Source: Megamonas hypermegale
Lineage (GTDB): Bacteria > Bacillota > Negativicutes > Selenomonadales > Selenomonadaceae
Direction: 5' to 3'
NCBI RefSeq assembly: GCF_900187035.1
Contig: NZ_LT906446.1
Span: forward strand, 248,001-312,000
DNA length: 64,000 nucleotides
Under the pieces are notes generated by a model, which did no database searches, was not told where the DNA came from, and worked only from the letters and a program-made list of their open reading frames with translations. Positions within the stretch are counted from its first letter, which is position 1. Every line of letters starts with the position of its first letter. Below are positions 1,402 to 56,613 of the stretch, in pieces. The position numbers and the translations under genes were made by a program.

Positions 1402-1403
1402 GT

Positions 1404-21146: not shown

Positions 21147-21228
21147 AACTATGGGGATAGCTCGGAGATACTGTATTCGTTAGAATACTTGACCGAGAAC
21201 CCCGCGACTTTAGTCGTGGGAGGTTCAG
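21118..21228 (+). ncRNA. IS605-like right end / probable omega-RNA 3' scaffold (IStron 1)
   Basis: After the tnpB stop the RNA can form a hairpin CTCGG...GTATTC/GAATAC...CCGAG (21161-21197) and then CCCGCGACT/AGTCGTGGG (21201-21220), followed by AGGTTCAG at the element end. This is the usual 3' layout of TnpB omega-RNAs, in which the guide is the host sequence beginning at the next base (21229). The same bases form the 3' end of the intron, so splicing and omega-RNA use compete for them. Confidence 0.75.
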
Positions 21229-21984
21229 GAATTCGATATGTGGAGTTTTGTACAGGAGAAAAAACAACAAGGGTTGATAAAACACGTTGGTTTTTCATTC
21301 CATTCTACGCCAGAAGAACTTGAAGAAATCTTGCAAAAACACCCAGAAATGGAATTTGTACAGTTACAGATAAATTATGCTGATTGGGAAAATCCAGCAG
21401 TGCAGTCGAGAGCTTGTTATGAAGTAGCACGCAAATACAATAAACCTGTAATCATAATGGAACCTGTAAAAGGTGGTATGTTGGCTACTCCACCAAGTAG
21501 CGTAGTTGATGTATTTAAAAAGGCAAATCTTGAAAAATCCGTAGCTTCGTGGGCAATTCATTTTGCTGCTGATTTAGAAGGAATAATAACAGTTCTTTCA
21601 GGTATGAGCAATATTGAACAGATTGAAGACAATATTGCCAATATGAAAGATTTTAAACACCTTACAGAAGATGAAAGAGCAGTCATAAAACAAGCGCAAG
21701 CAGAACTTAATAAAATAGATTTAATTCCGTGTACAACGTGTAATTATTGTGCAAAAGTTTGCCCAAATAATATTGGAATATCTGGCTCATTTACAGCTAT
21801 GAATTATTTAACTTTGTACAAAAATAAAGATGCAGCACTTCATCAAGAAAATTGGCTTGTTAAAGGTCATGGCAAAAAACGTGCCGATGAATGTATAAAA
21901 TGCGGAAAATGTGAACAAATTTGTCCACAACATATAGCTATAAGAGATAATTTAGAAAAAGTAACAAAAAAATTATTAAATTGA
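21229..21984 (+). CDS. 4Fe-4S aldo/keto reductase, exon 2
   Basis: The last 251 codons of the split gene plus stop. It begins EFDMWSFVQEKKQQGLIKHVGFSFHSTPEEL, the barrel continuation expected after the catalytic His, and ends with two ferredoxin-type clusters, CTTCNYCAKVCP and CIKCGKCEQICP, for 4Fe-4S binding. It is in phase 0 with exon 1. Without splicing it could at best be made from an internal start such as ATG 21238 and would lack the catalytic residues. A terminator follows. Confidence 0.93.
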   Translation, partial: EFDMWSFVQEKKQQGLIKHVGFSFHSTPEELEEILQKHPEMEFVQLQINYADWENPAVQSRACYEVARKYNKPVIIMEPVKGGMLATPPSSVVDVFKKANLEKSVASWAIHFAADLEGIITVLSGMSNIEQIEDNIANMKDFKHLTEDERAVIKQAQAELNKIDLIPCTTCNYCAKVCPNNIGISGSFTAMNYLTLYKNKDAALHQENWLVKGHGKKRADECIKCGKCEQICPQHIAIRDNLEKVTKKLLN

Positions 21985-34537: not shown

Positions 34538-35113
34538 ATGGTAAAAGATAAATTAATCGTTGCTCTTGATTTCCATACAAAAGAAGACGCACTCGCTTTA
34601 GTAGATAAATTAGGCGACAGTGTTGTTTTCTACAAAGTAGGAATGGAATTATTTTATAGAGTAGGTTCATCTATTATTGAAGAATTGAAAAAACGCAATA
34701 AAAAAATCTTTTTGGATTTAAAATTGCATGACATTCCAAATACAGTAGCACAAGGTTTATGCTCACTTTTATATCAGGGTGTAGATATCATGAATGTACA
34801 CGCTTCAGGTGGCTACACTATGATGAAAACAGCAGCAGATACAGTGCGTGCTGAAGCTAAAAAAATGGGCATTGAAGCACCAAAAATTATTGCTGTAACA
34901 ATTTTGACAAGTATTAATGAAGCTGATTGGGAAGGACTCGGTCAAACTGTTTCCATAAAAGACCAAGTAATTCGCTTAGCGAAACTTACTAAGGAAGCTG
35001 GGCTTGATGGCGTAGTAGCTTCACCGCAAGAAGCAAAATTCATTCGTGAAGCTTGTGGAGAAGATTTCCTCATCATAACTCCAGGTGTGCGTCCTGCTGG
35101 TGCTTCTATTGAT
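34538..35113 (+). CDS. pyrF: Orotidine-5'-phosphate decarboxylase, exon 1 (interrupted by IStron)
   Basis: First 192 codons of PyrF, the last enzyme of UMP synthesis. IVALDFHTKEDAL and the catalytic K-x-D-x-K-x-x-D array in KKIFLDLKLHDIPNTV are present, as is IITPGVRPAGASID near the exon end. ATG 34538 follows AACGAGG. If unspliced the frame adds 21 intron-coded residues and stops at TAG 35177-35179, losing the phosphate-binding GRPI loop. Exon 2 is at 36961-37098; the joined product is 237 aa, normal for PyrF. Confidence 0.95.
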
Positions 35114-35587
35114 TATTGTGAGCCGCACACTTGTGATTTTAATCATGAGTTAGGCGAACAAAATAGTCAGCGTATATAGAAATATGTACGTAGAGATAGA
35201 CTAAGATCTATCCAATACTGTTTGAATTGCTGGAAAGCCCTAAAGATATCTGAACTACAACGTAAACATGAAATAAAGTTAAACGTGAATGTGGCGAAAG
35301 CAGAAAAAATCAGATATATAGCATAAGGTTAAATCCTAAGTGTTGAAAAATGGACAATCAGCAGCGAAGCTCCGAATAGGAGAACGTTCAACGACTATTC
35401 CTCTTGAGGGAAGTACTCAGTAAGCTATTGACTGAGGAAGTGGACAGACTCTAACAGGTAAAGCTGAGGGATAAGATATAGTCTGTGCCGTTACGAAAGT
35501 AACGGAAGTTCATAAGAGAACTGTATAGAAAGTAGCGTTTCTATATGAACGAGACCTCATAATACGACTAAAGCAGAACCTACAGTT
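35114..35587 (+). ncRNA. Group I intron catalytic core (5' part of IStron 2)
   Basis: Same element order and pairing potential as the first copy, shifted by 15727 nt, with almost no substitutions in the core (for example GAAGAACC to GCAGAACC beyond the core). Conservation of the core while tnpB has several amino-acid changes suggests that splicing is kept functional. Confidence 0.88.
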
Positions 35588-35739
35588 CTTGTATATGTTA
35601 TTTAAAATAGGCAGTTAATATATAAACACTTGTTATATTGCTATACATATGTCATGATTATATTAGATGATAGTATGGAAGTAATACGTGGTAAAGGATA
35701 TATTTATTCATTAATTAGAAGAAAGCGTAAGTGTTTATT

Positions 35740-36849
35740 ATGGAAAAAGCTTATAAATTTAGGATATACCCCAATAAAACACAAGAAAGTTTACTTCAAA
35801 AAACTTTTGGCTGTGTACGTTTTATATATAATCACTTTTTAGATAGAAGAATTAAAGCATATGAACAAAATAAGAAAAATATAGGTTATAATGAATGCTC
35901 AAAAGAGCTTACTCAATTAAAAAAAGAAAAAAAGTGGCTTAAAGAACCAGATAAATCCTCTTTACAAAATGCTTTAAAGAATTTAGATACAGCTTATAAA
36001 AACTTTTTTAATAGACAAAAAGTAGGCTTTCCAAAATTCAAATCTAAAAAGAATCGGTATAAATCGTACAAAACAAATATGACAAATAACAACATTGTAT
36101 TTTTAGGAAATAAAATAAAATTACCTAAAATAGGTAAGATAAAAACAAGAGATAAATATTGCCAAATAGAAGGTAGGATTTTAAGTGCGACAGTATCACA
36201 GACTCCTAGTGGAAAATATTACGTTGCACTATGTTGTACAGAACTGCCTCAACCTGAATTCATCAAAACGAATAAATATGTCGGCTTAGATTTAGGAATA
36301 AAAGATTTTGTCATAACCTCAGATGCAGTAAAATATAGTAATCCTAAATACTTGCAGAAATCATTGACTAGATTAGCTAAACTCCAAAGAGAGCTTTCTC
36401 GAAAAACAAAAGGAAGTTCAAATTGGGAAAAGGCTAGAGTAAAAGTAGCTAAATTGCATGATAGAATTGCCAATCAAAGACGCAATTTACTACATCAAGT
36501 GACATGTCAACTTATCAGAAATTACGATGTAATCTGTCTTGAAGATTTGCAAGTTGAAAACATGATGAAAAATCATAAATTAGCAAGAAATATAGCTGAT
36601 GTCAGCTGGGCAGAGTTTATGAGACAACTAACATATAAAGCCAAATGGTTTGGCAGGGTTATTGTCAAAATAGATAAATTTTATCCTTCAAGCCAATTAT
36701 GTCATGTTTGTGGGTATAAAAATACTGAAGTAAAAGACTTAAATGTTAGAAATTGGAACTGTCCTAAATGTAAAACACATCACGATAGAGATGTAAATGC
36801 AGCTATAAATATTAGAGATGAAGGGTTAAGAATATTAAACATAGCTTAA
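35740..36849 (+). CDS. tnpB: TnpB RNA-guided nuclease, IStron copy 2
   Basis: A 369-aa protein differing from copy 1 at a handful of residues (for example V/A near residue 93, CHVCGYKN for [18 protein letters not shown] for [10 protein letters not shown]). All RuvC acidic residues ([24 protein letters not shown]) and the four zinc Cys are kept. Upstream, copy 2 has 5 extra nt that keep open a short frame reading [19 protein letters not shown], possibly the remnant of another ORF; copy 1 has lost this frame. Confidence 0.94.
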
Positions 36850-36960
36850 TCTTGAATAACATATACAAGAACCGTAGGAACTATGGGGATAGCTCGGAGA
36901 TACTGTATTCGTTAGAATACTTGACCGAGAACCCTGCGACTTTAGTCGTGGGAGGTTCAG
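36850..36960 (+). ncRNA. Right end / probable omega-RNA scaffold (IStron 2)
   Basis: Same two hairpins as in copy 1. In the final stem one C is T here, still able to pair with G, so the fold is preserved. The predicted guide is the pyrF exon 2 sequence from 36961. Confidence 0.72.
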
Positions 36961-37098
36961 GACCAAAGCAGAATTGCAACTCCAGCTAAAGCTTTAGCTG
37001 ATGGTGCTACTCATCTTGTTGTAGGCAGACCGATAAGAGCAGCTCAAAATCCAGTAGAAGCTGCTGAAAATATATTAAAAGAAATGGAGAATGCTTAA
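36961..37098 (+). CDS. pyrF: Orotidine-5'-phosphate decarboxylase, exon 2
   Basis: The last 45 codons plus stop: DQSRIATPAKALADGATHLVVGRPIRAAQNPVEAAENILKEMENA. It contains the phosphate-binding loop (VVGRPI) that every active OMP decarboxylase needs, so exon 1 alone should be inactive. There is no usable start codon or SD of its own, so it depends on splicing for expression. pyrE starts 3 nt after its stop. Confidence 0.94.
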   Translation, partial: DQSRIATPAKALADGATHLVVGRPIRAAQNPVEAAENILKEMENA

Positions 37099-40284: not shown

Positions 40285-40316
40285 GTAAAATACATAAATG
40301 ATTGGAGGCATTGTTT

Positions 40317-41435
40317 ATGGAGGCTTTTTTAGTTGCATTACAGTCCGTTTGGTTCGATAGTGGATATAGCGTACTGAACATTGGCAATATAATAATGATT
40401 TTAGTAGGAATTATTTTATTGTATTTAGCAATAGGTAGAGGATATGAACCTTTGTTATTATCCCCGATAGCATTTGGTTGCGTACTTGCAAACTTTCCAA
40501 ACACTGGTTTTGATGAAGGTTTGATGTGGGCAATCGGTGAAGGTATCAAGATGGAAATTTTCCCACCACTTATTTTCCTCGGTGTTGGCGCTATGACAGA
40601 CTTTGGTCCATTGATTGCTAATCCGAAGACCTTAATGTTAGGTGCAGCAGCTCAATTTGGTGTATTTATCGCACTTGGCGGTGCAATGCTCTTAGGTTTT
40701 AATGTCAATGAAGCAGCATCTATCGGTATCATCGGCGGTGCTGATGGCCCTACAGCTATTTATCTTACAACGAAATTAGCACCAGACCTTCTCGGTGCGA
40801 TTGCAGTAGCGGCATATTCATATATGTCACTCGTTCCGCTCATTCAACCACCTATTATGCGTTTTTTGACTACGAAAAAGGAACGCGCTATCAAAATGGG
40901 CCAGCTTAGAACAGTTACAAAATTTGAACGCATTGTATTCCCTATCATGTGTACAATCGTTATTAGTTTACTTTTACCACCAATTGCTTCCCTTATTGGC
41001 ATGCTTATGCTCGGTAACTTATTCCGTGAATCAGGCGTTACAGACCGCCTTTCCGATACAGCACAGAATGCACTTTGTAATATCGTAACGATTTTCTTAG
41101 CACTCGGTACTGGCCTTACAATGTCAGCTGATAGTTTCTTACGTTTACAGACTATTGAAATTATCTTCTTAGGCTTAGTTGCATTTGCTGGCGGTACAGC
41201 AGCAGGTGTATTATTTGGTAAACTCATGTGTAAACTCAGTGGTGGCAAAATTAATCCACTTATCGGTTCAGCTGGTGTATCTGCCGTTCCAATGGCAGCG
41301 CGTGTATCTCAGATTGAAGGTCAAAAAGCAAATCCTAGCAACTATTTATTAATGCACGCTATGGGACCAAATGTTGCTGGTGTAATTGGTACAGCCGTTG
41401 CAGCTGGTACAATGCTTGCTATGTTTGGTGGCTGA
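40317..41435 (+). CDS. oadB: Sodium-translocating decarboxylase beta subunit
   Basis: A 372-aa inner-membrane subunit that couples biotin-dependent decarboxylation of oxaloacetate, methylmalonyl-CoA or glutaconyl-CoA to Na+ export. The sodium-site motif [15 protein letters not shown] (about residues 140-154) with its conserved Asp, [17 protein letters not shown] and the C-terminal [19 protein letters not shown] are all family hallmarks. ATG 40317 is chosen: GGAGG lies 8 nt upstream. Neither the carboxyltransferase alpha subunit nor a complete biotin carrier is adjacent, so the substrate cannot be stated. Confidence 0.94.
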
Positions 41436-41475: not shown

Positions 41476-41643
41476 ATGCAAACAAAAAGATATAGAGTTG
41501 TCGTAAGTGGTACAGAGTTTTTTCTTGATGTAGTGCAAACTGGTGGTTCAACAGATGTACCGATGATATGCAGACAAGACCATAGAGAAATATGGAATCA
41601 CTCAAGCAAAGAACGTATGATGCATAATGCACATCAAAAATAA
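41476..41643 (+). CDS. 55-aa ORF after oadB, start resembles a biotin-carrier subunit
   Basis: ATG 41476 follows AGAAGG at a good distance and the frame of 55 codons stays open to TAA 41643. The first 20 residues (TKRYRVVVSGTEFFLDVVQTG) look like the first beta strands of OadA/MmdC biotin-carrier proteins (KYRVVVNG-x-Y-x-V-x-V), but the rest lacks any carrier domain or the AMKM biotin site. Veillonella methylmalonyl-CoA decarboxylase has a 55-aa epsilon subunit, but the sequence here does not resemble it as I remember it. It may be a real small subunit or the stump of a lost gamma subunit. Confidence 0.6.
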   Translation: MQTKRYRVVVSGTEFFLDVVQTGGSTDVPMICRQDHREIWNHSSKERMMHNAHQK

Positions 41644-41664
41644 ATAAATGTTAAAATAAAATTT

Positions 41665-41704
41665 AAAGGATGAATTTTGCTAGAAACAGAATTTATCCTT
41701 TAAT
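41665..41704 (+). terminator. Possible terminator after the oad genes
   Basis: AAAGGATGAATTTT (41665-41678) and AGAATTTATCCTTT (41688-41701) form an imperfect stem; the T run after it is short. Confidence 0.5.
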
Positions 41705-42415
41705 AAACATTATAGGTATATTAAAGTTTATTGCGATTTTATAAAAAATCAAATGAATTGCATATTAATGCTTATTTTTTTATTTATTAGTATATTTTTG
41801 ATATAATAATTAAAAAATAAGGACTATTAATCCTAATATTATTATTGACAATGCTAGTAATATCAAGGATTTTAATATTAAATAATATTTTTTTATATAA
41901 ATAAGTTTATATAATTAGTTGAATTTCTAAATTTATTGTTATAAATGAGAAAAAAATATATTATTTCTTAAAATTTTATATAGAGTTTATTTAACAAAAT
42001 AGAAAATTTTATATGAATTTCTTATGATTTTTATGAAATTTGTAATTTTTATATTTGCTACAATCCTTATTTATCAAGTGTTTTCTGGATAATAGAAAAT
42101 TTTTTCTTAGAAGTAGAAAATTTTGGGGAACATTTGCAAAAAGGGCTATTTCGTGATAAAATTAGCTCATAAAAATTAATAGGACTTAATAATTGTCTAT
42201 TTGGATTTATAGATTTATTAGTTATATGCAGTACTTACATAAATTACTTATTTAAAGCAGGAAAATAAGTTATTCAGATAGAATAGCTTTATAATAGACA
42301 ATGTTTTAGTCTAAAATTTTTACTATTTGGCAAAGACAGTCATTTTGATGATATAAAGCAGATGACCTAAATTTGTGAGCTGGATTAAAGTCAAAATAGT
42401 AAAACTTTTTATTCA

Positions 42416-42615
42416 AAAGGAGGACAAATTCACAATATAAGGTCGTCTGGAGTAAGAAAAGTGTCAATATGTCACTGTAAAACTTGTTTTTTGTTCATAG
42501 CAACAAGAACAAAGTAGAACATCTGAAAATAGTATTTGCAGATGTATTGCTGCACTTATTGTAGTGGTTTTAAATTTTTAGTGCATAGTGAGTCAATTTG
42601 ACTTGTGCAATAAAG
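42416..42615 (+). pseudogene. Decayed duplicate of the adhesin 5' end (SD, ESPR, signal peptide)
   Basis: The stretch aligns by eye with the functional adhesin start 803 bp downstream. AAAAGGAGG matches the SD region; GTCGTCTGGAGTAAG (42442-42456) matches GTCATATGGAGTAAG (43245-43259); CATAGCAAC, AACATCTGAAAATAGTATT and ATTGCTGCACTT match CATAGTAAC, GACATCTAGAAATAGCATT and ATTGCTGCACTT in the same order and almost the same spacing (127 versus 126 nt). The start codon is lost and there are in-frame stops. It is the relic of a duplicated trimeric autotransporter N-terminus. Confidence 0.8.
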
Positions 42616-43130
42616 AAAAAATAGCTACTTGATGTTGCATATAATTATAACAGTTAAGATAGTAATTAGGGTATATTTACCACTTTTTAGGGGTGGGACG
42701 GATAAAGACCAAATATTATTAAATAAGTGATGTTAAAGTATATGTAGCATTATGGTAGTTAGTGCATTGATAGTTTAATCTTTAAAATAAGATAATAATA
42801 AACTAGAAATTACAATGTACAAAGGATTAATAACAGTAGTAGTTATAAGATATTTAGCACCTTTTTAGGGGTGGGATGCTAACCATTGTTATCAGATAGG
42901 CAATACTAGAGCATTTGGTATTATAATGATTTTTATATTTTAATGCATTTCTAGTTTAACCTTTGTAGTAAAAAATAATAAATTAAAAGCTACAACTGTA
43001 ACAATTAATAATAGTTATGAGATATCTGACACTTTTTAGGGGTGGGATGCTATAAAATATTATTAAATGGGAACCAAGACCTTTGAAGGTATTTTAAATA
43101 TAACCGTAATTGTATTTACGTAAGTGCTAG
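42590..43130 (+). repeat. Three diverged direct repeats of about 170-177 bp
   Basis: The near-identical block TTTTTAGGGGTGGGA occurs around 42683-42698, 42862-42876 and 43032-43047, each time preceded by CAC and, upstream, by AAYAGTTAnGATA-like bases, and followed by ATTnTTAnnnnnG-like bases. In two copies ATGCT follows the block. The period is about 171-177 bp. G-rich blocks stand out in this AT-rich DNA, so they are likely functional (protein- or RNA-level regulation) rather than drift. Confidence 0.75.
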
Positions 43131-43226
43131 CAAGTAAAAATTACGATGAAGATAATTTTAATAATATCTTCAAATCAAATCGCAAGAAAAAACAGTGAAG
43201 GATTTTACTCAAGGGAGGGTAAACTT

Positions 43227-44387
43227 ATGAATAAGATTTATAAAGTCATATGGAGTAAGGTAAAACATCAATACGTTGTTGTTTCAGAACTTGCCCATAG
43301 TAACGGAAAACAGAGTAGGACATCTAGAAATAGCATTCGCAGTCGCATTGCTGCACTTGTAGTATGTGGTGCTATAGCAGCTTTTGGTGTTTTTGGTGCA
43401 GTGCCAAATTCAGTATTTGCAGCAGGAGCAGGAGCTATAACAAAACCAGGTCAATATATAGCTGTAGCAGTTGATCCAGATAGTCAAAACGATAGGTATT
43501 ATCAAAATGGTTGGCATTATTATAAAGAAGGTGACACTAGAACATTTGCAGATGCTCAAGGTAATACGCATAATTATACTTTTGTAAATGTTGGTGGCAA
43601 AAATTATTGGGTACGTGAAGGTTATACGATTACTATTGAAGAAGGAAGTAGATTTACAGCATATAATCAATCAGGAGATGTAATAGCTCCTGAAGATGGT
43701 AGTTTTATTATAGATAGCCAAAAAAGTCCTGATGCAGATGATGCGGGTTTAATATCTTCAAGTGAAGTTGTGTTAGCAGAAAATGAACATCGTCAAACTA
43801 ATTCTGGGGCATTAGTAGATGTATCTGCTGGTATTTATGGTGGAGCTGTCAATAGTGGTGGAACAGAAGTAAAATCAAGATATAATTATTATATTAATGA
43901 TAATAATAGTGGCTGGAAAGATGTTGGTAATAAAGAAAATATTTCAGGTATGGGAAATTATTTTAGGCAAGTATTTCGACAATCTGATGGCACATATAGG
44001 ACTGCAACAGGAATAACAGTATCTACTGATAATTTATATGTAATAGATGGTAAATTAGGTGCATTTTTTAATAGCAATAACAGTGTTTATACAGGAAATG
44101 TCTATGGTCTTCATAATGAAGTTTTAATGACTGGTGTAGATAGCGTTAATGGCAATTATTATAGCTATTGGGGAACGAAAATAAATGATCCTAATATGTC
44201 TATGTCTAATATGACTATAGGTGACCATGATAAAATTGTTACAGGTTTGCAGACTAATATTGACCATGTAAATGGTGATATTGTTCAAGAAATAAAATTA
44301 GATGGCAATACAGCTGGACAAGGTGGTACTTATCAAGATGGTAAAGGCGGTACTATTAATTTAGAACGTCGTGGCTATTGGAATTGA
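43227..44387 (+). CDS. Trimeric autotransporter adhesin, 5' part (ESPR, signal peptide, head) up to a frameshift
   Basis: A 386-residue fragment. ATG 43227 follows AAGGGAGGG. MNKIYKVIWSKVKHQYVVVSELAHSNGK is a clear ESPR (extended signal peptide region of type V systems), followed by the hydrophobic core IAALVVCGAIAAFGVFGAV and a cleavage site NSVFA-AGAG. The following 330 residues are a Gly/Asn/Tyr-rich head-like passenger that I cannot assign. The frame ends at TGA 44385 after NLERRGYWN. The continuing adhesin frame is +1 (from 44365 on); removing one base near 44374-44378 would join them as ...NLERRGIGIDENDKNKISV.... Full gene 43227-54144 would code for about 3638 aa. Confidence 0.88.
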   Translation: MNKIYKVIWSKVKHQYVVVSELAHSNGKQSRTSRNSIRSRIAALVVCGAIAAFGVFGAVPNSVFAAGAGAITKPGQYIAVAVDPDSQNDRYYQNGWHYYKEGDTRTFADAQGNTHNYTFVNVGGKNYWVREGYTITIEEGSRFTAYNQSGDVIAPEDGSFIIDSQKSPDADDAGLISSSEVVLAENEHRQTNSGALVDVSAGIYGGAVNSGGTEVKSRYNYYINDNNSGWKDVGNKENISGMGNYFRQVFRQSDGTYRTATGITVSTDNLYVIDGKLGAFFNSNNSVYTGNVYGLHNEVLMTGVDSVNGNYYSYWGTKINDPNMSMSNMTIGDHDKIVTGLQTNIDHVNGDIVQEIKLDGNTAGQGGTYQDGKGGTINLERRGYWN

Positions 44388-47300
44388 TGAAAATGATAAA
44401 AATAAAATATCAGTTGTTACAGGAAATGGTCTTGGCATAGAAGATGGAAAAGTTGTAGCAAAAGCAGGAACTAATGTAACAATAGATGAAAATGGAATTA
44501 ATGCAAAAGATACAACATTAGTAGGTGGAGAAATAACACCAACAACATCTGAAGACGGATATGAAAATACGTATGAAATAAAAGATACAGATGAAAATAA
44601 AGCAATACTTAAAGATGTAGCAAGTGCAACAAAATTAAGTAGTGTAGATAGTAAAGTAGGAGATACAAATTATAGTTCTAATAACTATATCAATGATGGA
44701 GATAGTTTAACTGAAGCTGCTAGTGATTTAGATACTGCTATAAAAACAACAGCTAATAAAGTAGATGCAGGCTGGAAAGCAACAGCTGGTGAAACTAGTA
44801 TTGATGTAAAACCAACAGAAGATGGTGTAGTACCTACATTAAATTTTGCTGGAGATAATAATATTAGTGTAACAGCAGATAAAGCAAGCAGTACAATTAA
44901 TGTAAAATTAGATCCAACACTTGAAGTTGAAAGTGTAACAGCTACAGGAAGTGTAAATGCTGGAGGAACAACAATTAGTTCAACAGGACTTGCAGTTGGA
45001 GGAAAAACATATGTAAGTTCAAATGGAATTAATGCACAAGGTCAAAAAATAACAAATGTAGCTAATGGCACAGATAAAAATGATGCAGTAAATTATGGTC
45101 AATTAGAAAGTTATGTAAGTGGTAATGCAACATATACAGAAGGCGATGGTATCAATATAAATAATAAAGTAATAAGTGTTGATACAGGAAAAGGCCTTGG
45201 CATAGAAGATGGAAAAGTTGTAGCAAAAGCAGGAACTAATGTAACAATAGATGAAAATGGAATTAATGCAAAAGATACAACATTAGTAGGTGGAGAAATA
45301 ACACCAACAACATCTGAAGACGGATATGAAAATACGTATGAAATAAAAGATACAGATGAAAATAAAGCAATACTTAAAGATGTAGCAAGTGCAACAAAAT
45401 TAAGTAGTGTAGATAGTAAAGTAGGAGACACAAATTATAGTTCTAATAACTATATCAATGATGGAGATAGTTTAACTGAAGCTGCTAGTGATTTAGATAC
45501 TGCTATAAAAACAACAGCTAATAAAGTAGATGCAGGCTGGAAAGCAACAGCTGGTGAAACTAGTATTGATGTAAAACCAACAGAAGATGGTGTAGTACCT
45601 ACATTAAATTTTGCTGGAGATAATAATATTAGTGTAACAGCAGATAAAGCAAGCAGTACAATTAATGTAAAATTAGATCCAACACTTGAAGTTGAAAGTG
45701 TAACAGCTACAGGAAGTGTAAATGCTGGAGGAACAACAATTAGTTCAACAGGACTTGCAGTTGGAGGAAAAACATATGTAAGTTCAAATGGAATTAATGC
45801 ACAAGGTCAAAAAATAACAAATGTAGCTAATGGCACAGATAAAAATGATGCAGTAAATTATGGTCAATTAGAAAGTTATGTAAGTGGTAATGCAACATAT
45901 ACAGAAGGCGATGGTATCAATATAAATAATAAAGTAATAAGTGTTGATACAGGAAAAGGCCTTGGCATAGAAGATGGAAAAGTTGTAGCAAAAGCAGGAA
46001 CTAATGTAACAATAGATGAAAATGGAATTAATGCAAAAGATACAACATTAGTAGGTGGAGAAATAACACCAACAACATCTGAAGACGGATATGAAAATAC
46101 GTATGAAATAAAAGATACAGATGAAAATAAAGCAATACTTAAAGATGTAGCAAGTGCAACAAAATTAAGTAGTGTAGATAGTAAAGTAGGAGACACAAAT
46201 TATAGTTCTAATAACTATATCAATGATGGAGATAGTTTAACTGAAGCTGCTAGTGATTTAGATACTGCTATAAAAACAACAGCTAATAAAGTAGATGCAG
46301 GCTGGAAAGCAACAGCTGGTGAAACTAGTATTGATGTAAAACCAACAGAAGATGGTGTAGTACCTACATTAAATTTTGCTGGAGATAATAATATTAATGT
46401 AACAGCAGATAAAGCAAGCAGTACAATTAATGTAAAATTAGATCCAACACTTGAAGTTGAAAGTGTAACAGCTACAGGAAGTGTAAATGCTGGAGGAACA
46501 ACAATTAGTTCAACAGGACTTGCAGTTGGAGGAAAAACATATGTAAGTTCAAATGGAATTAATGCACAAGGTCAAAAAATAACAAATGTAGCTAATGGCA
46601 CAGATAAAAATGATGCAGTAAATTATGGTCAATTAGAAAGTTATGTAAGTGGTAATGCAACATATACAGAAGGCGATGGTATCAATATAAATAATAAAGT
46701 AATAAGTGTTGATACAGGAAAAGGCCTTGGCATAGAAGATGGAAAAGTTGTAGCAAAAGCAGGAACTAATGTAACAATAGATGAAAATGGAATTAATGCA
46801 AAAGATACAACATTAGTAGGTGGAGAAATAACACCAACAACATCTGAAGACGGATATGAAAATACGTATGAAATAAAAGATACAGATGAAAATAAAGCAA
46901 TACTTAAAGATGTAGCAAGTGCAACAAAATTAAGTAGTGTAGATAGTAAAGTAGGAGACACAAATTATAGTTCTAATAACTATATCAATGATGGAGATAG
47001 TTTAACTGTAGCTGCTGGTGACTTAGATACTGCTATAAAAGCGACAGCTGATAAAGTAGATGCAGGCTGGTCGTTGTATTCAAACGGTAAAGAAGTTAAA
47101 AATGTAAAACCAGGTAATAATTGGATAAGTATTGATTCCGGTGATAATGTATCTATCACTAAAAATGAAGATGGCAACGGTATTAAGATTTCTGCTGATT
47201 TAAAAGACTTAGATGTAGAAGATACAAATGCTGTTCTGTATGATAATGAAGGCAAAACTTCCGTAACTCTCGGCGGCACAGGTCATGAAGCTGTTAAACT

Positions 47301-50300
47301 TACCAATGTAGCGGCTGGTGCATTAACTGAAACATCTACCGATGCTGTAAACGGTAGCCAGTTATTTGAAACCAATACTAAAGTAGATGCAGGCTGGTCG
47401 TTGTATTCAAACGGTAAAGAAGTTAAAAATGTAAAACCAGGTAATAATTGGATAAGTATTGATTCCGGTGATAATGTATCTATCACTAAAAATGAAGATG
47501 GCAACGGTATTAAGATTTCTGCTGATTTAAAAGACTTAGATGTAGAAGATACGAATGCTGTTCTGTATGATGATGAAGGTAAAACTACTGTAACACTCGG
47601 TGGCGAAGGTCATGAAGCTGTTAAACTTATAAACGTAGCAGCTGGTACAGTAGATGCTACATCTACAGATGCAATAAACGGTAGTCAGCTTTATAAAGTT
47701 CAGCAGCAGGCTGGAAAACATACCGAAATAACGGTTAACGGTGGAGTAGCTGCACCAGATGACGGCACATATACGCATGACGAACAAGGTCATTTAGATG
47801 GCAATTTGTTGTTAAAACAAAGTGAAGGTACAAATGGTCAAACGGTATATGATTTAAAACTAAATCCAGATATTACGTTACAGAGTGAAGATGACAAACT
47901 TGAAACACAGGATAATAGAGTTGAATTAAGCGGTTCAAATGGTACTATCATGGCAACGACTGATTTCAATGACATGAGCGCAACAACAACAATCAACGGT
48001 GGTAACGTTTATGTAGGAAATAGTGTATCCGTTGGTGATAAAGTTGTTATGACCAATGAAGATATCACCGGATTGTCCAATACTAATTGGGATGGAACAA
48101 CGGATAATGTAAGCAGAGCAGCAACAGAAGGTCAGTTAAAAACTGTATCCGACAATGTAAATGCAGGCTGGATTGCAACAGATAATAACGGTAACCAAAT
48201 TACTGTAAATCCAACAGATAATACGTTGAACTTCTCTAGTGATGAAAATGTTACAGTAGCAGCAAATAAAGATACCGGCTCAATTGATGTATCGTTGAAC
48301 AATGATATTGTATTAAATGGTGAAGGTGAAGCTGAAGATACCAAGAATAATAGGGTTACATTAAGCGGAACAAACGGTACAATTATGGCAACAACTGACT
48401 TCAATGATATGAGTGCTACAACAACTATTAATGGTGGTAATGTTTATGCAGGAAGCAGTGTATCTGTTGGTGATAAAGTAGTAATAACGGATAAAGATAT
48501 TACTGGATTGTCCAATACTACTTGGGATGGTACAACTGATAATGTAAGCAGAGCAGCAACAGAAGGTCAGTTAAAAACTGTATCCGATAATGTAAATGCA
48601 GGCTGGATTGCAACAGATAATAACGGTAACCAAATTACTGTAAATCCAACAGATAATACGTTGAACTTCTCTGGTGATGAAAATGTTACAGTAGCAGCAA
48701 ATAAAGATACCGGCTCAATTGATGTATCGTTGAACAATGATATTGTATTAAATGGTGAAGGTGAAGCTGAAGATACCAAGAATAATAGGGTTACATTAAG
48801 CGGAACAAACGGTACAATTATGGCAACAACTGACTTCAATGATATGAGTGCTACAACAACTATTAATGGTGGTAATGTTTATGCAGGAAGCAGTGTATCT
48901 GTTGGTGATAAAGTAGTAATAACGGATAAAGATATTACTGGATTGTCCAATACTACTTGGGATGGTACAACTGATGATGTAAGCAGAGCAGCAACAGAAG
49001 GTCAGTTAAAAGCTGTATCCGACAATGTAAATGCAGGCTGGATTGCAACGGATAATAACGGAAACCAAATCACTGTAAATCCAGATGATAATACGTTGAA
49101 CTTCTCTGGTGATGAAAATGTTACAGTAGCAGCAAATAAAGATACCGGCTCAATTGATGTATCGTTGAACAATGATATTGTATTAAATGGTGAAGGTGAA
49201 GCTGAAGATACCAAGAATAATAGGGTTACATTAAGCGGAACAAACGGTACAATTATGGCAACAACTGACTTCAATGATATGAGTGCTACAACAACTATTA
49301 ATGGTGGTAATGTTTATGCAGGAAGCAGTGTATCTGTCGGTGATAAAGTAGTAATAACGGATAAAGATATTACTGGATTGTCCAATACTACTTGGGATGG
49401 TACAACTGATAATGTAAGCAGAGCAGCAACAGAAGGTCAGTTAAAAACTGTATCCGACAATGTAAATGCAGGCTGGATTGCAACAGATAATAACGGTAAC
49501 CAAATTACTGTAAATCCAACAGATAATACGTTGAACTTCTCTGGTGATGAAAATGTTACAGTAGCAGCAAATAAAGATACCGGCTCAATTGATGTATCGT
49601 TGAACAATGATATTGTATTAAATGGTGAAGGTGAAGCTGAAGATACCAAGAATAATAGGGTTACATTAAGCGGAACAAACGGTACAATTATGGCAACAAC
49701 TGACTTCAATGATATGAGTGCTACAACAACTATTAATGGTGGTAATGTTTATGCAGGAAGCAGTGTATCTGTTGGTGATAAAGTAGTAATAACGGATAAA
49801 GATATTACTGGATTGTCCAATACTACTTGGGATGGTACAACTGATGATGTAAGCAGAGCAGCAACAGAAGGTCAGTTAAAAGCTGTATCCGACAATGTAA
49901 ATGCAGGCTGGATTGCAACGGATAATAACGGAAACCAAATCACTGTAAATCCAGATGATAATACGTTGAACTTCTCTGGTGATGAAAATGTTACAGTAGC
50001 AGCAAATAAAGATACCGGCTCAATTGATGTATCGTTGAACAATGATATTGTATTAAATGGTGAAGGTGAAGCTGAAGATACCAAGAATAATAGGGTTACA
50101 TTAAGCGGAACAAACGGTACAATTATGGCAACAACTGACTTCAATGATATGAGTGCTACAACAACTATTAATGGTGGTAATGTTTATGCAGGAAGCAGTG
50201 TATCTGTCGGTGATAAAGTAGTAATAACGGATAAAGATATTACTGGATTGTCCAATACTACTTGGGATGGTACAACTGATAATGTAAGCAGAGCAGCAAC

Positions 50301-53300
50301 AGAAGGTCAGTTAAAAACTGTATCCGACAATGTAAATGCAGGCTGGATTGCAACAGATAATAACGGTAACCAAATTACTGTAAATCCAACAGATAATACG
50401 TTGAACTTCTCTGGTGATGAAAATGTTACAGTAGCAGCAAATAAAGATACCGGCTCAATTGATGTATCGTTGAACAATGATATTGTATTAAATGGTGAAG
50501 GTGAAGCTGAAGATACCAAGAATAATAGGGTTACATTAAGCGGAACAAACGGTACAATTATGGCAACAACTGACTTCAATGATATGAGTGCTACAACAAC
50601 TATTAATGGTGGTAATGTTTATGCAGGAAGCAGTGTATCTGTTGGTGATAAAGTAGTAATAACGGATAAAGATATTACAGGACTTTCTAATACTACTTGG
50701 GATGGCAGTACTAATGATATAAGTAGAGCAGCAACAGAAGGTCAGTTACAAATGGTATCTGATAAAGTAACTGCTGGATGGACTGCAACAGATGATGCTG
50801 GTAATAAGATTAATGTAAATCCAGAAACTCGTCCAACATTGAATTTTGCTAGTGGTAAAAATATAACTGTAAGTGCAAATGAAGATAGTGGTGAAGTTGA
50901 AGTATCATTAAATGACAATATTAATCTAAACAATAGAGTTTATATCAATGGAGATCCAGAAGAAGGAAATAATACAATTGTTGATATAAAATCTAGTGAT
51001 ACATCTAAAGAAGAATCTATATTTGCTGTAGAAGATAAAGGAAATGGTTCTATAAGCATTGGTGGCATCGATATAACAAATGTTGATGGTCCATATTTAG
51101 CTGTAGGCGATGGCAAATTAAAATTCTATAAAGATGGTGGTCTTTCTACTGGTAATGCAACAGGTACATTTAGCGTTAGACCAGATGGCGATTTAGAAAT
51201 AAATGGAAAGAATAGTTCATTTAATGTAGATGCTGAAACTGGTAATGTAAATGCTATAAATAATAGTGGTTCTGCTATTATGATGAATGATGATAGTGTA
51301 GCTTTAAATGCTAGTGGAAATGGTGTAGCAATATCTGATGAAGGAATTACATTAAATACTAATGGAAGTGCAGTAACTGTAGATAGATTTAATGGAGCAA
51401 CATTTACTAATACTAATACAACAGAGTCTACAAATATAAATGGTGCTAATATCACAGCAGGTGAAGGAGAAAACCAAATTAAGATCAATGGTGCTCCAAA
51501 AGCTGATGATCCAGCATTGAGTGTAGGTACTGATAAATTTGTAGTAGGACAAGATGGTAGCTTATCAGTAAGTGATAAATTTAATGTAGACGCTGAAACT
51601 GGTAATATAAATGCTGTGAATAGTAATGGTTCAGCTATTATGATGAATGATGATAGTGTAGCTTTAAATGCTAGTGGAAATGGTGTAGCAATATCTAATG
51701 AAGGAATTACATTAAATGCTAATGGAAGTGCAGTAACTGTAGATAGATTTAATGGAGCAACATTTACTAATACAAATACTGGTGAAACTACAAATATTAA
51801 TGGTGATATTATTACAACAGATACAGTTAAAGGTCTTTCTAATACTACTTGGGATGATGAACTTGCAACACAAGTAGCAAATAGTGAAGAGCTTCAGGGT
51901 ACCGCTGCAACTCAAGGTCAATTACAACAAGCAGTTAGTGCAGTGGCAACTGAAGCTGCTAAACAACATACTACAGTATCTGGCGATGATAACTTAACAG
52001 TAAAATCATCAGTAAATGAAAATGGTGGAACAAATTATCAAGTAACATTGGATGATGATATTACTTTAGGTAATCCAAAAGCTGGTAATACTGAAGGTGA
52101 AAGAAGCTTTACAATCAATACTACTGCTCCAGAGGGATATGTTCCAGATTCATATAAAGAAGAAAACAGTAGTGGTGCAGAATTCATAAAAGAAAATGGT
52201 GGATTTATGCTCTTTGCAACAGATACCCAAGGTCATGGTATATTTGGTGTAACAGCAAAAGGTTCAGCATGGGCTAAAGATTTTAAAACTTATACTACTG
52301 ATATTTATGGTAATAATACACAGTATAGCTTAAATGATGTTGGCGATGCTGTAGCACAAATGTCTTCTTATTATAATAAAGAAAATGGAAAATCTTATAC
52401 TGTATTCTCTCGTTATCATAATGAAGCAGAGAAGGATAATCCATTTGAAACTGTAGATGGTGCAACTCGTGATATCCCATTAGCTCTTCGTGATGACGGT
52501 GCAGTGCTTATTGGTGCTACTATTGAAGGTGAAGGCTTCACTGATAATGGTATTAGAATTAATGCTGAAATTGATGATGATGGTAATAATAAGGCAACAA
52601 TCACTGGCTTAGAAAATACAGAATGGAAACCACCTACACCAGTAGCTACTTTAGCAGCAAATGATGGAAGTGCAACTGTAACAAGTAGAGCTGCAACAGA
52701 ATCTCAGTTAAATGATTTATATAGTGCAGTAGCTGCTTATGATGTTAATGTAGATGGTACTATTGATTATAGTCATATTGCTTTAGCAGGTGCACCTTAT
52801 GGAGCTTCTAGAGCTGGTAATGGAACACCTACAGGTGGTACAAGTATTACTAATGTAGCATATGCTTCTGGTACTGATGGTAGTGAAGCTGTAAACGTTG
52901 ATTACCTCAAAGATACTATTAATAAAGCTGTTGAAGCTGGTGGCTCTATTTCTAATAGTGATAAACATCTTGTTGCTAATACAGCAGAAGGTTCTAACGG
53001 TGTATATAAACCAAATGCTGAAGGTAATGTAAACTTAATTGTTTCTGATGAAAAAGGTAATAGTAGTACTGTAACTATTGGCGACGTTGCAAGTAAAACT
53101 GAACTTGATAGTTTGAAAACTAATGTTGGTGATCTTAACTATGACAAAGTAACTGGCGATAAACTTATAAATGGCGATAGCGTAACTACTGCTATTGGTA
53201 AACTTGATAACAAGATTGAAAATATCAGTGGTACAGCAACAGATGCAGCTAATAACACTGTAACTGGTGGTACTATTAAAGATGACGGTACAATTTCCTT

Positions 53301-54144
53301 AACGCAAAAAGACGGCGGTACAGTAGCTTTAGATGGCAAACTTACAGATAGTGGCGTTGTTCAGGATGGTACTAAATTTGATGGAGAAACTGGTACTTTA
53401 ACAATTACAAGTCAAGACAAATATAACAAAGGAACAAGCTCTGTAACTGTAAGTGGCATTGCAAGTAAAAATGATATCGGAACTGTTAAAGATACTATCG
53501 GTGCTACAAGCAAAGAAGATCTTAAAGATGCTTATAAAGATGCTGATAAAGATGGCAATGCAACTACTGAATATATCACTGATTCTGAAACTATGGTTGA
53601 TGCAGACGTTGCTCTTGACCATGCAGTTCAAGATGTTGCAAATACTAGCTATGCTAATGATATGATTTTAAGCAATCGTATTGATAACGTTGAAAGTCGT
53701 TTAGGCGATGTTGAAGAACGTATTGATAAAGTAGGTGCTATGGCTGCAGCTATCGCAAACCTCAGAACTATGGGATATGACCCAGAAGCTCCAACTGAAG
53801 TTGCTGTTGGCGTTGGTCAGTATAAGAGCGAAACAGGTATTGCTCTTGGTATCTTCCATTATCCAAACCAAGACTTCATGCTCAGTGCAAGTATCTCTAC
53901 TTCCGGCGATGAAGTAATGGGCGGTATCGGTGCTACTTGGAGAATTGGTCGTAAAACTGCTGAAGAAAAAGCTAAAGACGAAGAAGAACGTATTCTCGCT
54001 AAAGCTGAAGAAATTAAACAGGCAGCAAAACGCGCTGAAGTAAAAGAACAAGCAGAAAGACATGCTAAACTCTTAGCTGAAAGAGAAGCAAAAGGCGAAC
54101 CAATTGTACCGGTTGAAGAAAGCGCAGAACAAGCACAAGCTTGA
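44371..54144 (+). CDS. Trimeric autotransporter adhesin, passenger repeats and YadA anchor (frameshifted from its signal region)
   Basis: About 3257 codons, open from the frameshift to the stop; no credible start codon or SD. The order is 765-bp repeats (GLGIEDGKVVAKAGTNVTIDENGINAKDTTL...), two 327-bp repeats (AGWSLYSNGKEVKNV...), six 435-bp repeats (NAGWIATDNNGNQITV...), then unique head/stalk blocks with Hia/BpaA-type SRAATEGQL and GSQL neck-like motifs. The C-terminus has the coiled coil ILSNRIDNVESRLGDVEERIDKVGAMAAAIANL and the YadA_anchor barrel (VAVGVGQYKSETGIALGIFHYPNQDFMLSASISTSGDEVMGGIGATWRIGRK). A 62-residue charged tail follows the barrel. Surface adhesion is the family role. Confidence 0.9.
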   Translation: MAIGIDENDKNKISVVTGNGLGIEDGKVVAKAGTNVTIDENGINAKDTTLVGGEITPTTSEDGYENTYEIKDTDENKAILKDVASATKLSSVDSKVGDTNYSSNNYINDGDSLTEAASDLDTAIKTTANKVDAGWKATAGETSIDVKPTEDGVVPTLNFAGDNNISVTADKASSTINVKLDPTLEVESVTATGSVNAGGTTISSTGLAVGGKTYVSSNGINAQGQKITNVANGTDKNDAVNYGQLESYVSGNATYTEGDGININNKVISVDTGKGLGIEDGKVVAKAGTNVTIDENGINAKDTTLVGGEITPTTSEDGYENTYEIKDTDENKAILKDVASATKLSSVDSKVGDTNYSSNNYINDGDSLTEAASDLDTAIKTTANKVDAGWKATAGETSIDVKPTEDGVVPTLNFAGDNNISVTADKASSTINVKLDPTLEVESVTATGSVNAGGTTISSTGLAVGGKTYVSSNGINAQGQKITNVANGTDKNDAVNYGQLESYVSGNATYTEGDGININNKVISVDTGKGLGIEDGKVVAKAGTNVTIDENGINAKDTTLVGGEITPTTSEDGYENTYEIKDTDENKAILKDVASATKLSSVDSKVGDTNYSSNNYINDGDSLTEAASDLDTAIKTTANKVDAGWKATAGETSIDVKPTEDGVVPTLNFAGDNNINVTADKASSTINVKLDPTLEVESVTATGSVNAGGTTISSTGLAVGGKTYVSSNGINAQGQKITNVANGTDKNDAVNYGQLESYVSGNATYTEGDGININNKVISVDTGKGLGIEDGKVVAKAGTNVTIDENGINAKDTTLVGGEITPTTSEDGYENTYEIKDTDENKAILKDVASATKLSSVDSKVGDTNYSSNNYINDGDSLTVAAGDLDTAIKATADKVDAGWSLYSNGKEVKNVKPGNNWISIDSGDNVSITKNEDGNGIKISADLKDLDVEDTNAVLYDNEGKTSVTLGGTGHEAVKLTNVAAGALTETSTDAVNGSQLFETNTKVDAGWSLYSNGKEVKNVKPGNNWISIDSGDNVSITKNEDGNGIKISADLKDLDVEDTNAVLYDDEGKTTVTLGGEGHEAVKLINVAAGTVDATSTDAINGSQLYKVQQQAGKHTEITVNGGVAAPDDGTYTHDEQGHLDGNLLLKQSEGTNGQTVYDLKLNPDITLQSEDDKLETQDNRVELSGSNGTIMATTDFNDMSATTTINGGNVYVGNSVSVGDKVVMTNEDITGLSNTNWDGTTDNVSRAATEGQLKTVSDNVNAGWIATDNNGNQITVNPTDNTLNFSSDENVTVAANKDTGSIDVSLNNDIVLNGEGEAEDTKNNRVTLSGTNGTIMATTDFNDMSATTTINGGNVYAGSSVSVGDKVVITDKDITGLSNTTWDGTTDNVSRAATEGQLKTVSDNVNAGWIATDNNGNQITVNPTDNTLNFSGDENVTVAANKDTGSIDVSLNNDIVLNGEGEAEDTKNNRVTLSGTNGTIMATTDFNDMSATTTINGGNVYAGSSVSVGDKVVITDKDITGLSNTTWDGTTDDVSRAATEGQLKAVSDNVNAGWIATDNNGNQITVNPDDNTLNFSGDENVTVAANKDTGSIDVSLNNDIVLNGEGEAEDTKNNRVTLSGTNGTIMATTDFNDMSATTTINGGNVYAGSSVSVGDKVVITDKDITGLSNTTWDGTTDNVSRAATEGQLKTVSDNVNAGWIATDNNGNQITVNPTDNTLNFSGDENVTVAANKDTGSIDVSLNNDIVLNGEGEAEDTKNNRVTLSGTNGTIMATTDFNDMSATTTINGGNVYAGSSVSVGDKVVITDKDITGLSNTTWDGTTDDVSRAATEGQLKAVSDNVNAGWIATDNNGNQITVNPDDNTLNFSGDENVTVAANKDTGSIDVSLNNDIVLNGEGEAEDTKNNRVTLSGTNGTIMATTDFNDMSATTTINGGNVYAGSSVSVGDKVVITDKDITGLSNTTWDGTTDNVSRAATEGQLKTVSDNVNAGWIATDNNGNQITVNPTDNTLNFSGDENVTVAANKDTGSIDVSLNNDIVLNGEGEAEDTKNNRVTLSGTNGTIMATTDFNDMSATTTINGGNVYAGSSVSVGDKVVITDKDITGLSNTTWDGSTNDISRAATEGQLQMVSDKVTAGWTATDDAGNKINVNPETRPTLNFASGKNITVSANEDSGEVEVSLNDNINLNNRVYINGDPEEGNNTIVDIKSSDTSKEESIFAVEDKGNGSISIGGIDITNVDGPYLAVGDGKLKFYKDGGLSTGNATGTFSVRPDGDLEINGKNSSFNVDAETGNVNAINNSGSAIMMNDDSVALNASGNGVAISDEGITLNTNGSAVTVDRFNGATFTNTNTTESTNINGANITAGEGENQIKINGAPKADDPALSVGTDKFVVGQDGSLSVSDKFNVDAETGNINAVNSNGSAIMMNDDSVALNASGNGVAISNEGITLNANGSAVTVDRFNGATFTNTNTGETTNINGDIITTDTVKGLSNTTWDDELATQVANSEELQGTAATQGQLQQAVSAVATEAAKQHTTVSGDDNLTVKSSVNENGGTNYQVTLDDDITLGNPKAGNTEGERSFTINTTAPEGYVPDSYKEENSSGAEFIKENGGFMLFATDTQGHGIFGVTAKGSAWAKDFKTYTTDIYGNNTQYSLNDVGDAVAQMSSYYNKENGKSYTVFSRYHNEAEKDNPFETVDGATRDIPLALRDDGAVLIGATIEGEGFTDNGIRINAEIDDDGNNKATITGLENTEWKPPTPVATLAANDGSATVTSRAATESQLNDLYSAVAAYDVNVDGTIDYSHIALAGAPYGASRAGNGTPTGGTSITNVAYASGTDGSEAVNVDYLKDTINKAVEAGGSISNSDKHLVANTAEGSNGVYKPNAEGNVNLIVSDEKGNSSTVTIGDVASKTELDSLKTNVGDLNYDKVTGDKLINGDSVTTAIGKLDNKIENISGTATDAANNTVTGGTIKDDGTISLTQKDGGTVALDGKLTDSGVVQDGTKFDGETGTLTITSQDKYNKGTSSVTVSGIASKNDIGTVKDTIGATSKEDLKDAYKDADKDGNATTEYITDSETMVDADVALDHAVQDVANTSYANDMILSNRIDNVESRLGDVEERIDKVGAMAAAIANLRTMGYDPEAPTEVAVGVGQYKSETGIALGIFHYPNQDFMLSASISTSGDEVMGGIGATWRIGRKTAEEKAKDEEERILAKAEEIKQAAKRAEVKEQAERHAKLLAEREAKGEPIVPVEESAEQAQA
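44431..47000 (+). repeat. 765-bp tandem repeat, 3 full copies plus a partial fourth
   Basis: Copies start at 44431, 45196, 45961 and 46726 (CTTGGCATAG phase), exactly 765 bp (255 codons) apart. They are almost identical at DNA level; I see single changes such as GGAGATAC/GGAGACAC and AATATTAGTG/AATATTAATG in copy 3. The fourth copy diverges from about 46996. The period is a multiple of three, so copy-number change keeps the frame. Confidence 0.95.
47053..47700 (+). repeat. 327-bp tandem repeat, 2 copies
   Basis: AAAGTAGATGCAGGCTGGTCG starts copies at 47053 and 47380. The first 200 bp are virtually identical; the ends (ALTETSTDAVNGSQLFETN versus TVDATSTDAINGSQLYKVQ) have diverged. 327 bp is 109 codons. 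Confidence 0.9.
48157..50766 (+). repeat. 435-bp tandem repeat, 6 copies with alternating types
   Basis: Copies start at 48157, 48592, 49027, 49462, 49897 and 50332, each 435 bp (145 codons). Copies at 49027 and 49897 share a variant (GGAAACCAAATCACT, CCAGATGAT, preceded by GATGATGTAAGC and AAAGCTGTATCC), the others the alternative form. So a 870-bp dimer has itself been duplicated. A diverged seventh unit starts at 50767. Confidence 0.95.
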
Positions 54145-55144: not shown

Positions 55145-55258
55145 AGAATACTTATTTATTTTTAATTAAATATAAAAAAGACCTACAATAATTACTAAAA
55201 TGTGAACTGCACCCCAAAAGTTGGACAAAAAAACAACTTTTGGAGGTGCAGCTTTTTT

Positions 55259-55765
55259 ATGACTAAATACTCAAATGAATTTAAAGTTAAAGCAATTAAA
55301 ATGGTTTTAAAAGGAGATTCTATTTCTCATGTATCTAAAATTCTAAACATGCCAAATACAGCTTCTCTTTGTAGATGGATATCTCATTATGAACATGATG
55401 GCATTTCACAACTTCTTCATAAAAATCGTAAATATACTCCTATCTTTAAGCAAAAAGTTATTGAATATAAATGGCTACATCATTTATCATTAAATCAAAC
55501 AGCAGCCAAATTTTCCATTCCTAATACTGGTACAATTTCTACATGGGAAAAATTGTATAGCTCTTATGGATTTTCTGGCTTAGTTTCTAAGAAACGAGGT
55601 AGACCATCTATGAAAAAATCTAAAAACAAAGTTAACAAACCTAAAAAAGAACTTTCTTATGTTGAAAAATTGGAACAAGAAGTTTATCAATTAAGGATGG
55701 AAAATGACCTATTAAAAAAGTGGCATGCCTTAATGAAGCAATGGGAAAAGGAAGGAAGACACTAG
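55259..55765 (+). CDS. IS3-family transposase OrfA
   Basis: A 168-aa DNA-binding product with two helix-turn-helix segments (EFKVKAIKMVLKGDSISHVSKILNMPNTASLCRWI and YKWLHHLSLNQTAAKFSIPNTGTISTWEKLY) and a C-terminal leucine zipper (LSYVEKLEQEVYQLRMENDLLKK). ATG 55259 follows GGAGGTG. The slippery heptamer A AAA AAG (55714-55720) lies in the zipper end and would shift ribosomes -1 to make the OrfAB fusion. Confidence 0.93.
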   Translation: MTKYSNEFKVKAIKMVLKGDSISHVSKILNMPNTASLCRWISHYEHDGISQLLHKNRKYTPIFKQKVIEYKWLHHLSLNQTAAKFSIPNTGTISTWEKLYSSYGFSGLVSKKRGRPSMKKSKNKVNKPKKELSYVEKLEQEVYQLRMENDLLKKWHALMKQWEKEGRH

Positions 55766-56613
55766 TTTTAGTAATTGCTAAATTAAGGAAAAAATATACT
55801 CTAAAAGCCCTATTAAACTATACAAAATTAGCTAAAAGCACATATTATGATGCATTAAAAAAATTATCAAAAGAAGACAAATATAAAGGATTAAAAACAT
55901 TAATTCATAATATTTGTAATAAAAATCATGGAAGATATGGATATAGAAGAGTAACTTTGCAACTGCATAAACAAGGAATAAAAGTCAATCATAAAGTAGT
56001 TATGAGATTAATGAAAGAAGAAAATTTAACATGTAAAGTAAGAGCAAAGAAATATAAATCTTATAGAGGGCAAGAAGGGAAAATAGCTAAAAATATATTA
56101 AATAGAAATTTCAAAGCATCAAAACCAAACGAAAAATGGGCAACGGATGTAACAGAATTTGCATTATGTAATGAAAAAATATACTTATCACCAATAATAG
56201 ATTTATATAACGGAGAAATAATAAGTTATAAAATATCGAAAAGACCAATACTAAAGCAAGTATTAGATATGGTAGAAGATGCAACAAGAAAGATAAAAGA
56301 AACGAAAGGAATAATTCTACATTCAGACCAAGGATGGCAGTATCAGAATAAAAGATATCAGGAGTTATTAAAAGAAAAAGGCATTATCCAAAGCATGAGC
56401 CGAAAAGGAAATTGCTTAGATAATGCCGTAATAGAAAATTTCTTTGGTTTATTAAAAAGCGAATTGTTCTATTTAAAAAAATTCAAATCCGTTGAAGATT
56501 TTATAAAAGAGTTAAAATCTTATATAAAATATTATAATACAAAACGGATAAAGATAAAACTAAAAGGACTTAGTCCCGTAGAATATAGAACTAAGTCTCA
56601 ATTAGTAGCTTAA
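55720..56613 (+). CDS. IS3-family transposase OrfB (DDE domain)
   Basis: The -1-frame partner, about 297 codons. It has an HTH_21 lead (GRYGYRRVTLQLHKQGIKVNHKVVMRLMKEENL) and the rve integrase core with the DDE residues: Asp in NEKWATDVTEFAL, Asp in ILHSDQGWQYQ, and Glu in NCLDNAVIENFFGLLKSE. The real product is the OrfAB fusion through the slippery site; the GTG at 55720 is simply the first start-like codon in frame. Confidence 0.94.
   Translation: MACLNEAMGKGRKTLVLVIAKLRKKYTLKALLNYTKLAKSTYYDALKKLSKEDKYKGLKTLIHNICNKNHGRYGYRRVTLQLHKQGIKVNHKVVMRLMKEENLTCKVRAKKYKSYRGQEGKIAKNILNRNFKASKPNEKWATDVTEFALCNEKIYLSPIIDLYNGEIISYKISKRPILKQVLDMVEDATRKIKETKGIILHSDQGWQYQNKRYQELLKEKGIIQSMSRKGNCLDNAVIENFFGLLKSELFYLKKFKSVEDFIKELKSYIKYYNTKRIKIKLKGLSPVEYRTKSQLVA

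Follow-up and report, generated by a model that had tools for sequence, protein, structure and literature searches.

Three diverged tandem repeats with a conserved G-rich block in the leader of a trimeric autotransporter adhesin gene of Megamonas hypermegale

Introduction

The leader of a trimeric autotransporter adhesin gene in Megamonas hypermegale carries three diverged repeat units, each holding the same G-rich word. Why has this word been kept while the sequence around it drifted, and does it act in RNA, in DNA, or not at all? The array lies in a 64-kb window (the whole stretch of DNA analysed here) of a genome that consists of a single contig of 2.23 Mb. The local repeat is real and its shared word conserved; among the genomes searched, it is present in one. 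The reading that we prefer, with a probability of about 35%, sees the block as a cis-acting site working in the transcript, perhaps in a Shine-Dalgarno-like manner. If the block were such a working RNA site, it would give an outer-membrane-bearing Firmicute an added way to control a very large surface adhesin. For now the array is a curiosity of one genome, its local signal of conservation being clear and comparative support absent, and not yet a discovery.

The adhesin locus and its repeat units

The features of the locus are listed in Table 1. The leader belongs to an AT-rich stretch from about 41.64 to 43.2 kb, with 24% GC over 41661-43226. The adhesin itself is read in two open reading frames, which lie in different frames and overlap at 44371-44387, where either a real break or a sequencing error is possible. 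Further downstream is a transposase pair with HTH and integrase-core domains (55202-56613), IS3-like by our reading.

Table 1. Coordinates, in the window, of the features discussed in the text
Feature	Position	Strand	Evidence or remark
ZTP riboswitch	1319-1406	-	Rfam, 61.6 bits
Oxaloacetate decarboxylase beta subunit gene	40302-41435		precedes the AT-rich stretch
Short unnamed reading frame	from 41477		precedes the AT-rich stretch
Decayed second copy of the adhesin ribosome-binding site and ESPR start	42411-42563	+	just upstream of the units
Repeat unit 1	42574-42724 (ends approximate)	+	alignments and shuffles
Predicted long sense-strand hairpin, block 1 at its tip	42622-42761	+	52 pairs, imperfect; shuffle test of 42615-42770
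Conserved block, copy 1	42684-42698	+	exact match; ACG directly after
Repeat unit 2	42755-42897 (ends approximate)	+	alignments and shuffles
Conserved block, copy 2	42862-42876	+	exact match; ATG directly after, then a 7-codon frame
Repeat unit 3	42937-43069 (ends approximate)	+	alignments and shuffles
Predicted core stem of unit 3	43005-43066 (43005-43013 with 43058-43066)	+	9 pairs, no mismatch
Conserved block, copy 3	43033-43047	+	exact match; ATG directly after, then a 2-codon frame
Adhesin Shine-Dalgarno AAGGGAGGG	43211-43219	+	pairs best with the 16S tail within 41640-43300 (-12.3 kcal/mol)
N-terminal ORF of the trimeric autotransporter adhesin, with ESPR signal region	43227-44387	+	Pfam ESPR, E 6.1e-15
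Adhesin stalk and anchor ORF, in another frame	44371-54144	+	Pfam YadA_stalk, YadA_anchor

The units are related to each other outside the word that they share. With the block left out, the alignment scores of their bodies were reached by none of 500 shuffles for units 1 and 3 and for units 2 and 3, and by 9 of 500 for the pair 1 and 2. When the window was searched with a profile built from the units, these three were recovered, the next matches having E values of 2.4 and 7.3. Pairwise identities outside the block are 55, 61, and 68%, and 46% of the 155 ungapped columns there are invariant. The boundaries are rough, being our reading of the alignments. This alignment evidence establishes tandem homology, and we read the units as products of old tandem duplication within an AT-rich adhesin leader.

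The conserved block

The word TTTTTAGGGGTGGGA stands exactly at 42684, 42862, and 43033 on the forward strand. The first-pass annotation had described one G-rich block kept across three diverged units of 171-177 bp; both the block and the three diverged units are confirmed, and the start-to-start spacing is corrected to 178 and 171. Elsewhere in the window there is no site within two mismatches of the block (mean of 100 shuffles, 0.07). Its core decamer AGGGGTGGGA occurs three times forward and never in reverse in the 2.23-Mb genome, all three times in the array; the exact complement of the decamer being absent genome-wide, no antisense partner was found elsewhere.

Inside the block all seven G columns are invariant, against four of the 48 G-holding columns outside it (Fisher 1.6e-6), and the longest invariant run across the units, of 18 ungapped columns, was reached in 12 of 100,000 column permutations, both p-values being optimistic, since it was its conservation that singled the block out. 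Comparison of the units thus suggests that the block, picked post hoc, is under constraint against a drifting AT-rich background; the constraint asserted at first reading is likely, though short of proven.

A coding role was considered and rejected. Ten frames of at least 20 codons overlap 42400-43230, and none is common to the units. Nor is there a conserved frame behind the blocks: since the ATG opens only 7 and 2 codons at blocks 2 and 3 and block 1 is followed by ACG, the blocks share no leader peptide.

Predicted RNA structure of the leader

On the sense strand 42570-43230 is predicted to fold at -146 kcal/mol, where shuffles give -120 (z -4.44, 0 of 100 as good), and on the antisense strand with a z of -1.38 (12 of 100). 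Much of this excess stability sits in unit 1, where the span 42615-42770 gives a sense z of -4.43 (0 of 400 shuffles) and an antisense z of +0.25 (244 of 400). The outer helix of the hairpin predicted there joins 42622-42643 to 42739-42761 by 22 pairs (13 A-U, 4 G-C, and 5 G-U, with one bulge).

When centred on their blocks, units 2 and 3 show no such excess: 194 and 59 of 400 shuffles folded as well. Longer spans gave 27 of 400 in sense and 3 of 400 in antisense for unit 2 (the antisense value for 42780-42960), and 108 of 400 in sense for unit 3. In a scan with 150-nt windows an antisense window at 42815 reached a z of -4.2, and strong sense windows at 41640-41665 probably reflect a terminator belonging to the genes before the leader; a modest gain in stability over shuffles was also seen in other upstream stretches, on both strands. 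The outer arms of units 2 and 3 show no pairing with each other (416 and 451 of 500 shuffles as good); the pairing of arm 3 with the 3' arm of unit 1 was equalled by 3 of 500 shuffles.

Around the block, core stems similar to that of unit 3 can be drawn in unit 1, with two mismatches, and in unit 2, with one; there is one two-sided change among the units. The consensus fold of the three cores was not significant (104 of 1000 column shuffles), three sequences giving little power, and single cores with the block fixed and the flanks shuffled were matched in 45, 157, and 7 of 1000 cases. The fold predictions thus make a structured leader possible, best supported at unit 1 and not for the whole array. 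The tandem structured RNA leader put forward in the first-pass annotation finds some backing in the sense fold of unit 1 (0 of 400) and none in units 2 and 3 (194 and 59 of 400) or in the consensus (104 of 1000).

Predicted pairing of the blocks with the 16S tail

Each copy of the block is predicted to pair with the tail of the 16S rRNA (the 15 bases used, present at five places in the genome) at -10.0 kcal/mol, and the best five sites for the tail in 41640-43300 are the adhesin's own (-12.3), that of the decayed copy (-12.2), and the three blocks, followed only at -6.8 by the next; at 16 gene starts of the window the values lie between -1.1 and -15.0. The strength of this pairing is partly due to G-richness: 16% of permuted blocks pair as well, and 5 of 100 shuffled leaders hold three such sites. 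The predicted accessibility of the blocks (0.42, 0.24, and 0.40) is no higher than the leader average of 0.37.

The closest parallel is STAB-SD, which the excerpts of PMC4113751 describe as a 5' mRNA stabiliser of cry3A, in which RNase J is halted by a 30S subunit sitting a long way from the start codon. According to the same excerpts, STAB-SD resembles a Shine-Dalgarno sequence, lies well upstream in a long leader, as the block does, and is not required to direct translation; it is complementary to the 16S tail, with which the blocks are predicted to pair, and RNase J is encoded in the present genome (670 bits, above the cut-off). STAB-SD differs in being a single copy against three here; our blocks, known from sequence alone, are predicted to lie in stem-loops with an accessibility not above the leader average, and their complementarity is partly explained by G content. 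For standby sites no matching literature was found.

Under the preferred reading of the block as a cis-acting RNA site, the leader would be co-transcribed with the adhesin and the block would be read as RNA. It might then be a Shine-Dalgarno-like site that binds the 30S subunit with no proper gene behind it, and whether it is exposed or masked in a stem-loop would determine how stable, or how well translated, the very long mRNA of the adhesin is, much as STAB-SD acts on cry3A. This specific mechanism, a stem-loop-gated 30S site tuning the adhesin mRNA, is a guess that we consider rather improbable in such detail. More improbable still is its fullest version, a lineage-specific leader device in which three stem-loops each present a Shine-Dalgarno-like word that no true gene follows, and which would act as tandem 30S landing or roadblock sites protecting or gating an adhesin mRNA of about 11 kb.

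The RNA reading as such gains from the conservation of the block on a drifting background, from the sense-only fold of unit 1, and from the place of the blocks among the best sites for the 16S tail. It is weakened by the lack of excess folding in units 2 and 3, the antisense signals elsewhere, the null consensus fold, the G-richness, the average accessibility, and the absence of the array from the relatives searched.

Search for the array in other genomes

Our search for ESPR regions gave 33 matches in 17 of the 189 genomes of the family, 30 of which, including the window's own, were taken as loci; one of the 29 other leaders measures only 157 nt, and two of these matches start inside the signal region, so that what lies upstream of them does not correspond exactly to the leader. 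The block within two mismatches was present at 0 of the 29 other ESPR matches (out of 32 listed besides the window's own), and four of the 29 loci have one single match with three mismatches. The other species of the genus has no ESPR match. The genome of the window encodes a second ESPR adhesin (1088800-1092500 of the contig, with an open frame of 2469 codons), whose signal start is 85% identical to that of the window adhesin; the leader of this second adhesin is different and unrelated, with no block within three mismatches.

Wider searches gave the same picture. With one mismatch allowed, the 15-mer has 20 scattered single matches in the family's 188 other genomes, where the reversed pattern used as a control has more (about 74, counted by hand), and BLAST of 42560-43235 against 101 genomes drawn from the 189 (own genome included) returned, besides the window, two short AT-rich matches of 26 and 49 bases. 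A covariance model of the cores, run on the 189 family genomes with E values up to 1, found the three units and three other places (E 9.1e-4, 0.57, and 0.63). The first, in genome G075, lies inside a coding frame and was judged a chance match; the other two were taken as noise. With stricter filters and E up to 0.01, the same model found in the 380 genomes of the class, besides our own, only G075 again. An exact pair of decamers at the matching distance exists in one of these 380 genomes, the present one. The exact block pair at the matching distance was found in no viral contig, and phage records gave no match; the viral and genome contig collections may omit records of the window's own genome. 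Its sole genome-contig match was rejected as an unrelated Bacteroidetes tandem repeat, a metagenome contig (positions 100-600) with a GGGGTGGGAATAAATTCCCACCC-like palindrome in tandem every 90-100 bases or so, unrelated to the window.

By these comparisons, and as far as could be searched, the array appears to be an orphan of a single genome, set against 379 other genomes of the class. A search for the motif before other adhesins of this class had been proposed at first reading; it is absent (within two mismatches) from all 29 other ESPR matches, among them the second adhesin of the same genome, and this absence speaks against a leader common to the adhesins and against their loci recombining with each other. 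The pattern named at the outset as speaking against a role was a motif missing before related adhesins and scattered at random elsewhere: the first half is what we found, and the second is not, the decamer being confined in this genome to the array.

In the literature we found nothing that joins trimeric autotransporters, untranslated regions, and riboswitches; the excerpts of PMC7549365, a paper that mentions both Negativicutes and trimeric autotransporters, do not deal with the repeats or the leaders of adhesin genes.

Alternative explanations

Almost as likely as the RNA site, and like it held only tentatively, is neutral decay: a piece of the leader would have been tandemly duplicated during a rearrangement of the adhesin locus, and its copies would be eroding without function, the block being kept by chance or by partial homogenisation. 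That this locus was duplicated and decayed earlier is indicated by the eroded second ESPR start just upstream of the units, which matches the adhesin start by 80% over 56 bases (offset 801) and by 86% over 21 (offset 803), with 0 of 200 shuffles aligning as well; judged from this alignment, it is the remnant of an earlier tandem adhesin start. The leader 5' of this relic has no detectable kinship with the newer leader (110 of 200 shuffles). We also compared the units with the adhesin start, which shuffles matched in 181, 91, and 10 of 200 cases for units 1, 2, and 3, the last being marginal; the heads of the units as further ESPR relics were rejected as not significant (180, 44, and 95 of 500). 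Decay would agree as well with the absence of array-like sequence from the relatives searched, with a structure not kept from unit to unit, and with the lack of a conserved coding frame. What it explains poorly is the block itself, whose 18-column run and G columns, post hoc as the choice was, are a strong signal in sequence that is AT-rich and drifting.

Tandem DNA operators, also suggested at first reading, or promoter elements are a second close rival, more doubtful than decay. Here a transcription factor would occupy all three copies of the block, ahead of the adhesin promoter, which suits a short, non-palindromic conserved word, fairly regularly spaced, before a surface gene. Yet with the decamer restricted to the array such a factor would serve one gene; promoter-like sites show no clear excess (20 against 14.9 expected, sd 4.3), and the sense-only fold of unit 1 would not be expected of a DNA site. 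A terminator scan gave a single short hairpin, within the ESPR relic and present on both strands.

That the array is a divergent form of some known leader RNA, for example a tandem T-box or c-di-GMP riboswitch, is very unlikely. The block contains GGGTGGGA, compatible with the T-box core GGGUGGNA, and c-di-GMP riboswitches stand upstream of adhesin genes in some Firmicutes; tandem riboswitches and T-box leaders likewise consist of tandem leader units with a conserved G-rich core. Unlike them, the array has no fold common to its three units, and the covariance models of Rfam 15, run on both strands of 42000-43300 with permissive filters, gave no match up to E 5, in line with the first-pass judgement that no known riboswitch class fits. 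At gathering level Rfam reports in the whole window two group I introns and the ZTP riboswitch, none of them at the array. Repeats of another kind, such as the TAAA tract of nadA, drive phase variation from before trimeric autotransporter genes. Like these tracts, the array precedes an adhesin of this secretion class; its units differ in being about 130-150 bp long and strongly diverged, so that slippage is not expected.

Recombination sites exchanging leaders between adhesin loci, also proposed at first reading, are the least credible of all: the adhesin start does occur twice, decayed and intact, and the second adhesin has its closely similar ESPR start, but with no block before that adhesin and no decamer elsewhere in the genome such an exchange lacks a second site.

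Other elements in the window

The window also holds two elements of about 1.85 kb, at 19382-21230 and 35109-36962, which are 98.3% identical. Each consists of a group I intron (19439-19778 and 35166-35505) followed by an IS605 OrfB/TnpB gene, and from this composition they look like IStrons. They sit after the starts of genes for an aldo/keto reductase and an orotidine phosphate decarboxylase.
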